Source of the DNA: Magnolia sinica
Lineage: Eukaryota; Streptophyta; Magnoliopsida; Magnoliales; Magnoliaceae
Assembly (NCBI RefSeq): GCF_029962835.1
Contig: NC_080582.1
Span: 76,504,177-76,568,176 of the forward strand
DNA: 64,000 nucleotides
Reading direction: 5' to 3'
Part shown: one piece after another, positions 4,894 through 52,388 of the stretch
Layout: every line of letters begins with the position of its first letter
Numbering within the stretch: the first letter of the stretch is position 1
The notes under the pieces: model-generated
What the model saw: only the letters and a program-made list of their open reading frames with translations
The model's database searches: none
What the model was told of the DNA's origin: nothing
Program-made: the position numbers and the translations under genes

Positions 4894-5470
4894 ATGTTCC
4901 TTATAGAAGGGGATATAAATGAAATAAGAAAAGAGATTACTCTACTACTAAGTATTGAAGGTGATCCTTTAACACTTAGTGAAGCTCTCTCATCTCCTAA
5001 TGTACAGTTTTGGAGGGAATCTATCGACGATGGAATGGATTCCATAGTCTCAAATAACACTTGGTGTTTGGTTGATCTTCTACCAGGTTTAAAGCCTATA
5101 GGACATAAGTGGATTTTCAAAAGAAAGTTCAATTCTAATGGGACTATAAATAAATTTAAAGCTCGATTGGTAGCCAAAGGATTTAAACAAAAGGAATGTA
5201 TTGATTTTTTCGATACATATGCTCATGTTGCTCGCATATCTACTATTAAGACTTTAATTGCTCTTGCAGCAATTCACCACCTAGTAGCCAAATGATGTAG
5301 ACAAAATGAATGTATTGATTTTTTTGATACATATGCTCATGTTGCTCGTATATATACTATTAGGACTTTAATTGTTCTTCTAGCAATTCACCACCTAGTA
5401 ATCCATCAAATGGATATCAAAATGACATTCTTAAATGGTGATATAGATGAGAAAGTCTATATGAAACAAC
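4894..5470 (+). pseudogene. Copia reverse transcriptase, N-terminal part
   Basis: The frame from about 4970 reads the canonical Copia RT opening: WRESIDDGMDSIVSNNTW, then KPIGHKWIFKRKFN, FKARLVAKGFKQK and ECIDFFDTYAHVARISTIKT. A 114-bp segment is then duplicated in tandem (5187-5414), with a TGA in the junction. The frame resumes with a HQMDIKMTFLNGDIDEKVYM-like region (5403-5467) and stops at the deletion joint. The catalytic YVDD motif is missing. Confidence 0.8.
5187..5414 (+). repeat. 114-bp in-frame tandem duplication inside the RT fragment
   Basis: GAATGTATTGATTTTTT starts at 5194 and again at 5308, and the two units match closely through CAATTCACCACCTAGTA. The 114-bp period equals 38 codons, so the duplication keeps frame, although the first unit ends in TGA. 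Each unit carries the same residues (ECIDFFDTYAHVAR). Confidence 0.85.
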
Positions 5471-21040: not shown

Positions 21041-21710
21041 TCAAACACCTTGTTTGAAGATGATTGGAAACCAGAAAACTAGTATGAGCTGGAGACCTAG
21101 AGCCATTGGGCTAGTGGGATGTAAATGTGCTGGATTTGTTTTCAGATGTGGTGGCCCATGATACATTTCTCAAGTGCAAGTATAGTTTGATGAGGCCTCC
21201 AGTTCTATCAATGTGGGGTCCATGGTTTAATATCTTGACCCTTGATCCGATTGGGCAGGCCATGGATGGGGGATGCTGCAAAAATTTCTTCGAGTGGAAG
21301 ATCCTAACCATTCGATCGGTGGCGTACAAATAGACAGTTTAGAAAAAAGCAGACCATTAGTCCATTTTCACTAGAGAAATGGTCAATGATCAAAGGGTTA
21401 TTAGGATTTTCCTATCTGGGATTTTTTAGTTCTCCCCATCCACTGTGGGGTTAATCAGATAAATGGCTTAGATCACCCAGAACTGTAGGCCCCACATTTC
21501 CTCAGGGCTCAATAATGGCAACCCATGGCCTCCAGTATAAAACCCACCACTCTATTATCTTTTGAATTTAGGAAAAGTGAAAAGACATTTGGTTACTATG
21601 AAGAAAAAGGAAAATCCTTCTCATTTGAGAACTAAGCTGTCTATGAAAAACAGCTGACGTGGTTTCCTCTTTGGTGGGCCATGTATAGACAAGCCATCAT
21701 TAGATGCACG
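21041..21710 (-). other. Upstream region of the receptor kinase gene
   Basis: No coding sequence is recognised. GGAAGATCCTAACCATTCGA (21297 on) is close to a block near 17664 in the kinase intron, so this is partly dispersed repeat. The kinase promoter should lie here; no TATA box could be assigned confidently. Confidence 0.4.
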
Positions 21711-22450
21711 GTTTGATTTTAAGTAGGTGGGCCATCTTGGTTTAGTCTTTTTGTTTTGAGATGCGATCTTGGCAATAGAGATAAATCAATCAGTCTGCCC
21801 TTTTCCTGGTAAAGATGATGAATTATGGGGCCCTTATCATAGCTCTAAAATTTGATGCTTGACTCAGAACTTGGCCGAGTCAACTCGACTCGATGGTTAG
21901 ATTTTAAGTAGGTGGGCCATCTTGGTTTAGTCTTTTGTTTTGAGATGTGATTTTGGCAATAGAGATAAATCAATCAGTCTGGCCTTTTCCTGGTAATGAT
22001 GATGAATTATGGGCCCCTTATCATAGTTCTAAAATTTGATGACTTGACTCAGAAGTTGGCTGAGTCAACTCAACTCGATGGTTCGATTTTAAGTAGGTGG
22101 GCCATCTTGGTTTAGTCTTTTGTTTTGAGATTTGATCTTGGCAATAGAGATAAATCAATCAGTCTGCCCTTTTCCTGGTAATGATGATGAATTATGGGGC
22201 CCTTATCATAGTTCTAAAATTCGATGGCTTGACTCAGAACTTGGCCGAGTCAAACCGACTTGAGGGTTTGATTTTAAGTAGGTGGGTCATCTTGGTTGTC
22301 TTTTGTTTTGAGATGTAATCTTGGCAATAGAGATAAATCAATCAGTCTGCCCTTCTTCCGGTGATGCCGATGAATTATGCTGCCCTGATCATAGCTCTAA
22401 ATTTTGATGGCTTGACTCAGAACTTGGTCGAGTCAACTTGACTCGGCTGG
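21711..22450 (+). repeat. 185-bp tandem repeat, four copies
   Basis: Units start at 21711, 21896, 22081 and 22266, each with TTTTAAGTAGGTGGG, TTGGCAATAGAGATAAATCA and TTGACTCAGAA followed by TTGGCCGAGTCAA-type words. The first three are each exactly 185 bp and very similar; the fourth is more diverged. No coding. The array lies about 780 bp upstream of the receptor kinase start codon. Confidence 0.95.
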
Positions 22451-22604
22451 TTTTTGGGCCTGAGTTGTGTGGACTTGTAATATATTAGACTCGGTCAACT
22501 CGATCTCAACTCAGTCTATTTGAATTAGAATGGTGATGAATTATGGGGTCTTGGATCCTCATGAAGACATCCTGGTGTGTATGTATGTCTCGTGCAGCAA
22601 TGAA

Positions 22605-50715: not shown

Positions 50716-51139
50716 TGGTTTCAAATTATTATAAAATGATCGGCCAAACTCCTCTTCACTTTCAAACGTATGTAACTTTGTTTGATGTATGCGTTATGCT
50801 AATTTGAGAGAAATTACATGAAAATAAATATAATCACGTTAAAACAAAGGACTTTATTGTGAGTCCTTGGTTGACAGGTTAGATATCATTTATTTTAAAC
50901 CAACCCATGTGCAAAATAAAAGGTTAAGTAAGATGGGGACGTCCAGGTGGTTTGAGAGTCAACTTGAGCCCAACTCAACATTAAATAGGGTTAACCCATC
51001 GCCCAACCCAACATTAGGCCAACCATATCCCAACATTAACCTATCTTGAGTTAGGTTGGTTTGTACAAGTTGGGCTACATTGGTTCGAGCTAGATTGGAC
51101 AGTGCACTTTACTAGTATTAGAAATTTGGTATCTTGTAT

Positions 51140-52026
51140 TGTAAGGCCTATCCCCAAGACATATGATATTGTCCGTTTTGCCGAAGCTCACGGATTTAAA
51201 AACACGTCATCTGAGAAAAGGATGCTGGTAGCTCACTTAGGCCGGATCAGCCCCACCCACATTAGCACCCACCCCTTCAGATATTGTCCAACTAATTGTT
51301 ATCCGAGTGCGCAACGGTGGTTTTGTTTGTCACTAGACACAGGTTCACCTGTTATAGGCACGACGTGTCATGACTGTTAAGGAATGAACCTAACTTATAG
51401 TCACCACAACTTTGGATGACGCTTCCGATGTGGGACAAAGTTCCACCTTTACTGTTTACACGGTAGCCTGCTAGTCACGCAGTAGCCTGCCTGCCACCTT
51501 AAGGCTCGCTCACATATGTGCCCACCCATGTGTGCCCGCCCACATGTGACCATAGTGATGGGGCGTCACAATATCCCCCACTGAGGGCAGAGCCATCCTC
51601 GGCTTTGATACCACTTGTAAGGCTCATCCCCACAACACATGATATTGTCTGCTTTGCCAAAGCTCACGGATTTAAAACGTATCATCTGGGGAAAGGATAC
51701 TGGTAGCTCGCTTAGGCCCGATCGGCCTTGCCCACATCAGCACCTACCCCTTCAGATATTGTCCAACCAACTGTCATCAGAGTGCGCAACGGTGGTTTTG
51801 TTTGTCACTGGACATAGGTTCATCTGTTTTAAGCATAACGTGTTATGACTGTTAAGGAAGGAACCCAACTTATAGCCACCGCAACTTCAGACGACGCTTC
51901 CGATGTGGGACAAAGTTTCACATTCACTGTGTGCATAGTAGCCTGTCGACCACCTCAGGGTCCGCCCACATATGCGCTCGCCCACGTGTGTCTGCCCACA
52001 TGTGACCACAGTGATGGGGCATCACA
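51140..52026 (-). mobile_element. Miniature LTR retrotransposon with a 45-bp interior (TRIM-like)
   Basis: Two direct repeats (51140-51570, 431 bp; 51616-52026, 411 bp) read on the minus strand as LTRs starting TGTGACGCCCCATCAC / TGTGATGCCCCATCAC and ending GCCTTACA. Between them, minus strand, is AAG, then TGGTATCAAAG (51603-51613), complementary to the initiator tRNA-Met end and the usual Copia primer site, and then AGTGGGGGATAT, a polypurine tract directly before the next TGTGACG. The interior therefore holds only primer site and polypurine tract. Flanks TGTAT (51135-51139) and TATAT (52027-52031) form a 5-bp duplication with one change. The LTRs carry TTTGTCCCACATCGGAAG. Any movement would need proteins supplied by another element. 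Confidence 0.88.
51603..51613 (-). other. Primer binding site of the miniature LTR element
   Basis: TGGTATCAAAG on the minus strand differs from the common Copia primer site TGGTATCAGAG by one base and lies 2-3 nt after the LTR end. Confidence 0.8.
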
Positions 52027-52388
52027 TATATTATACACACATTAATATAATAATTCAAATGATGTAGGTGATAGAGGTTTTGAGTTTAGGTTGGGTTGGG
52101 TTGCCAAAGGCCTCAACCCATGGCCAACCCAACTCAGGAAGTTCAAGGATTTCTAGCCCAAGCACGATCCATCCTCAACCCAACCCAACTTGACCCAACC
52201 ATAATTTCAGGTGGGGCCAGTTGGTTCGGGTTGAGCCCAACCTCTGTCATAAAGTCTCCAATTAAGAGAGATAACTACAATAATCCAAAACAGAGGAGAG
52301 CTAAGTATAATTATCATATAATTGAGGAGAGGTAGTAGGTCCCATGGTGTTGTAGAGCGGGCCGCAGGCCTATTGACGCAGGGAAGGA

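Follow-up and report, generated by a model that had tools for sequence, protein, structure and literature searches.

The question raised by this locus is whether two long terminal repeats (LTRs) separated by 45 bp belong to an element that has multiplied in this minimal form, or are the product of an isolated deletion or a local duplication. The locus lies at 51140-52026 of the window, the 64,000-nucleotide stretch of the Magnolia sinica genome analysed here. The preliminary description had proposed a miniature LTR retrotransposon with two direct repeats of about 420 bp with TG..CA ends, an initiator-Met primer binding site (PBS) followed by a polypurine tract (PPT) on the minus strand inside the 45 bp, and TGTAT/TATAT bracketing the whole. 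We located the following features.

51140-52026, minus strand: whole element, a TRIM-type non-autonomous LTR retrotransposon, 887 bp
51616-52026, minus strand: 5' LTR, 411 bp
51900-51910, minus strand: TCCCACATCGG box in U3 of the 5' LTR, from the motif count in the LTR set
51869-51874, minus strand: TATAAG in the 5' LTR, read from the sequence, a presumed TATA box with a putative promoter role
51688-51848, minus strand: 161-bp segment of the 5' LTR missing from the 271-bp LTR class, from alignment with the L011 5' LTR
51571-51615, minus strand: interior, 45 bp, AGTGGTATCAAAGCCGAGGATGGCTCTGCCCTCAGTGGGGGATAT
51601-51613, minus strand: PBS TGGTATCAAAGCC, beginning two bases past the 5' LTR
51583-51600, minus strand: spacer between PBS and PPT, 18 bp
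51571-51582, minus strand: PPT AGTGGGGGATAT, abutting the 3' LTR
51140-51570, minus strand: 3' LTR, 431 bp
51425-51435, minus strand: TCCCACATCGG box in U3 of the 3' LTR, from the motif count in the LTR set
51394-51399, minus strand: TATAAG in the 3' LTR, read from the sequence
51135-51139, plus-strand letters: left copy of the target-site duplication, TGTAT, matching the right copy at 4/5 positions
52027-52031, plus-strand letters: right copy of the target-site duplication, TATAT, matching the left copy at 4/5 positions

This structure agreed with the proposal in each of these respects. The repeats are LTRs of 411 and 431 bp that are 86% identical (K2P 0.163), and both start with TGTGA and finish with TTACA. 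On the minus strand the interior reads AG, PBS TGGTATCAAAGCC, the 18-bp spacer and PPT AGTGGGGGATAT, that is, the two priming sites in the order claimed, and the 5-mers that flank the element are equal at four of five positions. A K2P of 0.163 would mean some 6 My if the rate were 1.3e-8 per site and year, and some 54 My if it were 1.5e-9; we assign no date to the insertion. With up to two mismatches, the TCCCACATCGG box was present in 71 of 74 LTRs and in 0 of 74 shuffled LTRs, and the TATA-box pattern GGCTATAAGTTGG, with up to three mismatches, in 57 of 74 LTRs and 9 of 74 shuffled ones. The PBS of the window copy has an A as the second base of AAA where most family copies have G; TGGTATCAGAGC is the conserved tRNA-complementary PBS of Cassandra (PMC7215508).

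We searched the window's own assembly (1.84 Gb, 127 contigs) for further copies. The 887-bp element as query gave 1505 first-look candidates, the best 40 of which were scored (109 matching pieces), and a query of the interior plus its junctions gave 636, again with the best 40 scored and 30 of these 40 places fetched. The PPT with the LTR start, allowing up to three mismatches, matched the genome 783 times and a reversed control 0 times, part of these matches belonging to a larger family, LARGE1. The exact two-anchor pattern PBS-N{0,30}-PPT-LTR start, which sees spacers of 0-30 bp only, gave 128 matches in the genome and 0 in the reversed control. Among the 100 listed of these 128 matches, 96 have the spacing of the window copy and four are off by 1-2 bases, and the prediction of many copies with the same 45-bp interior was thereby confirmed. 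Distinct interiors found by motif (n = 65) are 45 bp long in 61 cases, 46 bp in two, and 44 and 39 bp in one each; the motif finder missed L002, L005 and L010, and L103 yielded no interior by motif. The gap from LTR end to LTR start, mapped by LTR end pieces with boundaries that jitter by 1-2 bp, was 37-47 bp in 39 of 40 element-query loci and exactly 45 bp in 27, the opposite of a situation in which all relatives have long coding interiors; these queries score whole-element or junction matches first, so that long-interior relatives are under-sampled, which searches from the U5 side and the PBS side offset in part. End-piece mapping detected a single LTR end at L005, and L036 has additional gaps of 216-244 bp between LTR fragments.

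Independent insertion should be visible in the flanks. Among 44 delimited elements and arrays, a set that omits nine locus/strand entries with too weak an LTR end (L006 twice, L013, L014, L015, L025, L055, L062, L063), a perfect 5-bp duplication was found in 17 and a 4/5 match in 11. The 37 single elements comprise 15 with 5/5, ten with 4/5, six with 3/5 and six with 0-2/5. Pairing the left flank of one single element with the right flank of another (1332 pairs, the seven arrays being left out of this null and of the divergence analysis) gave 5/5 in 0.23% and 4/5 in 1.7%. The independent 5-bp duplications that the preliminary description had named as the mark of a family are therefore present: 25 of 37 single elements have 4/5 or 5/5, far above the null, and the family copies are independent insertions with a 5-bp duplication. 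With 128 pattern matches against 0 in the control, and true flanks that outmatch mismatched ones, the arrangement of PBS, PPT and flanks is not due to chance. The LTR pairs of single elements differ by a K2P of 0.048-0.210 (median 0.129; transitions/transversions 4.5), a spread that indicates insertions of differing age. Of 211 interior differences, 177 are C-to-T or G-to-A, an excess that would fit silenced, methylated copies.

Across the family the LTRs range from 219 to 666 bp and the interior is nearly constant. LTRs of 219-293 bp are found in 34 of 37 single elements and LTRs of 381-439 bp in the window copy, L003 and L004; the 5' LTR of the window copy equals the 271-bp class plus the 161-bp segment, at LTR positions 178-339. 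The longest LTRs, 661 and 666 bp, are the outer ones of the composite L101, and both contain about three tandem repeats of a 135-bp unit that matches the 161-bp segment. The composite has two interiors of 45 bp each and is bracketed by a perfect CCTTG duplication; its middle contains a 267-bp short-class LTR and then an inverted LTR. At L101:2076-2579, the 267-bp LTR and PBS are followed directly by the inverted LTR. All 37 single elements measure at most 923 bp; the arrays and the L101 composite are longer.

We also considered extra constraint on the interior. Transversions between 34 single elements were 0.023 in the interior versus 0.048 in the LTRs. In the 26 element-query elements from loci not fetched via the interior query, the interior (0.027) showed no difference from conserved LTR blocks (0.031 and 0.036), with bootstrap ranges spanning zero, which gives no support for extra constraint. 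At the LTR rate 15% of interiors would be expected to have an indel versus 4 of 65 seen, in a set where motif detection favours intact interiors. The fixed interior length is adequately explained by common descent. A candidate hairpin over the PBS, CAGAGCCG-AGGA-CGGCTCTG, could form each of its pairs in 82-100% of 61 interiors; the window copy folds like its shuffles (z 0.26), and the hairpin was dropped.

Some copies are joined into arrays of the form LTR-int-LTR-int-LTR (n = 7: L018, L020, L027, L036 twice, L052 and L054), an arrangement also described in Cassandra, Wukong and further TRIMs (PMC7215508, PMC4528315, PMC4717578) and in larger LTR elements (PMC11899658). Their outer duplications are perfect in two, 4/5 in one and at most 2/5 in four, and AGAAG stands at both outer ends of L018 and of L027. 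L018, L020 and L027 have four LTRs and three interiors and lie in a segment present three times on contig C5, the copies being 87-94% alike. The four LTRs of L018 are pairwise equidistant (p 0.131-0.152). Between L018 and L027 the third LTRs differ by 0.039, the fourth by 0.004 and the first two by 0.13-0.14, and this unequal divergence indicates that exchange within the array has happened; the fourth LTRs are 0.4% apart versus 14% for the first, a pattern that conversion or exchange confined to part of the array might leave. At C2:78728865-78730182 and C7:40707223-40708757, family interiors lie close together in opposite orientations, which suggests inverted arrays or neighbouring insertions.

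We then looked at possible sources of the family and of its proteins. LARGE1 is a much more abundant larger LTR family (11815 first-look candidates, best 40 scored), of which copies L071, L072, L073 and L097-L100 were examined on contigs C1, C2, C6, C11 and C18. Its PPT is identical to the TRIM PPT and is preceded by TCTRCCCTCGG in L071 and L073 and, with 1-2 changes, in L072 and L097. Over its first 220 bp the LARGE1 LTR matches the TRIM LTRs, at about 71-82% where most of this stretch is aligned, and the similarity stops just past the TATA box; the L071 LTR is 944 bp long, ends in ATGACA and has a tail with GATTGTCGAGGCC-type repeats. Because the 45-bp interior looks like a PBS end joined to a LARGE1-like PPT end, this comparison of sequences suggests that the TRIM family arose by internal deletion of a larger element. 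Sense open reading frames (ORFs) of at least 110 aa were found in five of six LARGE1 copies within the roughly 6-7 kb read upstream of the 3' LTR, and pol was not recognised by eye in those of four copies. The ORFs compared with Pfam were three from L073, two on the opposite strand of L072 and one from L097. The L073 ORFs match Gypsy RNaseH, an integrase zinc-binding domain and an SH3 domain. They have the orientation of LARGE1, whose PPT follows about 5 kb downstream, and because a PPT/LTR-like junction intervenes they were judged to be probably a separate element. LARGE1 may have a coding member.

The LTR tip with the PBS, CCTTACAARTGGTATCARAGC, occurred exactly 48 times in the genome versus 0 in the control. 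Twenty-six of these sites are at known family copies and 20 were fetched: eight are TRIM family members (interiors 44-46 bp), nine are Gypsy-like with a gag start past the PBS and three are others; the remaining sites are one Gypsy-like and one in the L101 composite without a PPT. G1 is a low-copy Ty3/Gypsy family with this LTR tip and PBS (L124, L122, L105, L107, L108, L110, L115, L116 and C96:23123) found over 141 bp at nine places with 94-100% and four with 71-73%, which carries a Retrotrans_gag domain and in some copies in-frame stops. In the 665 bp before the PBS no similarity between G1 and TRIM LTRs beyond the tip was found, the best match being 24 bp at E 0.004. By its LTR tip and PBS, G1 is a possible helper. 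At C12:74659573-74660482 two G1 copies are about 0.9 kb apart and face each other. With the second half of the window LTR as query there were 171 first-look candidates (best 40 scored, 52 matches). Outside the L101 composite, neighbouring matches on the same strand were spaced by about 225-490 bp; another same-strand pair, C1:44488535 and C1:44508861, is 20 kb apart, and its first member lies next to a listed 45-bp interior. No long-interior relative with this LTR half appeared among the best 40 of the 171 places. The larger relative that had been proposed to supply proteins was thus not established, as the LARGE1 region read held no clearly linked coding sequence and the Gypsy family shares the tip and PBS only.

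The LTR pair, PBS, PPT, duplications, dispersed copies and arrays are all directly visible in the DNA. In the life cycle that we propose, transcription from the TATA box in the 5' LTR would give an RNA with U5, the 45-nt interior and U3/R, which would be packaged by the Gag of a helper element. tRNA-iMet would prime at the PBS, two bases past the LTR; after strand transfer the PPT adjoining the 3' LTR would prime the second strand, and helper integrase would insert the TRIM DNA with a 5-bp duplication. Since the interior is made up of PBS, 18-bp spacer and PPT, any other cis signals, packaging included, would need to be located in the LTRs or to coincide in part with the priming sites. That 45 bp is about the natural minimum for LTR retrotransposition, with other cis needs including packaging met by LTRs of about 220-666 bp, is a possibility that we put forward tentatively and consider rather doubtful.

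Other histories of the locus have to be weighed against a mobile family. The interior does resemble the two ends of a larger element joined, as it would if the window copy alone had lost the interior of a coding element. However, the same interior length is found at 96 of the 100 listed of 128 places, many with their own duplications, which puts the deletion once in the source and not at the window locus, and an isolated derivative is extremely improbable. A local tandem duplication, or arrays spread by recombination alone, would account for the seven arrays, four of them with poor outer duplications, and for L018, L020 and L027 sharing one segment thrice present on contig C5. Against this, 37 of 44 delimited units are single, the flanks of 25 of these 37 match at 4/5 or 5/5, and perfect outer duplications bracket L018 and L027 (AGAAG) and L101 (CCTTG); dispersed singles with their own duplications are the reverse of a local duplication without independent insertions elsewhere, which makes such a history very unlikely. 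Judged by copy number, interior length and own duplications, the element did not arise as a lone deletion product or by local duplication, and it is very probably one old, decayed copy of a dispersed, protein-less TRIM family in its own genome.

LTR size, a Met PBS, arrays and smallness are common to some retrozymes, Cassandra and Helenus elements (PMC4918200, PMC7215508, PMC10853983, PMC10886601), and the locus might be one of these, with a ribozyme or Pol III promoter in its LTR. Rfam returned no hammerhead, 5S or tRNA match for the window copy at E up to 1 (two weak microRNA matches) or for 12 other loci at E up to 5 (five weak microRNA/snoRNA matches), and ARAGORN found no tRNA within the window. 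Retrozymes are alike in having LTRs of 300-400 bp, a Met PBS and no coding sequence, and share only end boxes with Ty3-gypsy, as the TRIM family does with G1, but are described with a hammerhead ribozyme, a 4-bp duplication and a central region of 300-600 bp (PMC4918200), whereas the duplications here are of 5 bp. Cassandra is similar in its Met PBS, tandem arrays and LTRs of about 200-400 bp (PMC10853983, PMC7215508) and differs in the 5S promoter in its LTR, which had no match here, and in Asteraceae interiors with a median of 82 bp (PMC10853983). The tRNA-like LTR sequence of Helenus was not found here (Rfam, window copy and 12 loci; ARAGORN, window). Membership in one of these groups is therefore highly unlikely, and a TRIM family in its own right remains our reading.

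Among TRIMs, Wukong of maize is close in its LTR pair, PBS and PPT, very short interior, 5-bp duplications and arrays, and differs in measuring 532 bp with 230-bp LTRs and a 72-bp interior (PMC4528315), versus LTRs of 219-666 bp and 45 bp here. SMART/FRetro129 of grasses is likewise noncoding with a PBS, a PPT and a 5-bp duplication; it is smaller overall (292 bp, 85-bp LTRs) and has a longer interior of 122 bp (PMC3281118). OsajRetroS10 of rice resembles the family in its shared LTR tip plus PBS (ACAAGTGGTATCAGAGCC) and in an origin by internal deletion from a larger element, but has 115-bp LTRs in 408 bp, leaving an interior of about 178 bp, and a known coding Copia parent (PMC4717578). PMC4528315 quotes a narrow definition by Witte 2001, with LTRs of 100-250 bp, an interior of 100-300 bp and a total below 540 bp; the window copy, with LTRs of 411 and 431 bp and a 45-bp interior, falls outside this range. 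It fits wider later limits on total size, and its LTRs exceed the roughly 350 bp given in one later definition. In the broad sense of a noncoding LTR element below 1000 bp it is a TRIM, with TG..CA repeats, PBS and PPT in place, a noncoding interior, a length of 887 bp and copies dispersed with target-site duplications.

The statement that TRIMs are known holds; the statement that their interiors are usually 100-300 bp needs narrowing, since published ones also measure 72 bp in Wukong, a median of 82 bp in Asteraceae Cassandra and 85 bp in Helenus-1_SMo (PMC10886601). The 45-bp interior is at the short end of the published range, below the at least 72 bp of the TRIMs compared in these sources. 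An interior as short as 45 bp was not found in the portions of the TRIM literature compared, which stop short of the 289 subfamilies in the supplement of PMC4717578, and no description of this family was found in the TRIM literature for Magnolia and Liriodendron. The kind of element is thus long known, and the family itself appears to be new and, among those compared, extreme in interior length. It sets a natural bound on how short the inter-LTR sequence can be with priming, strand transfer, packaging and integration still possible, and with more than 100 copies, varied LTR lengths and one interior length it offers a replicated system for locating the remaining cis signals. LTR-finding programs with a larger minimum interior would probably miss such elements.

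Elsewhere in the window, a 114-bp unit is tandemly duplicated at 5170-5425, where one frame resembles a Copia reverse transcriptase by eye, and a tandem repeat of 185 bp x 4 with 90% matches lies at 21710-22453.
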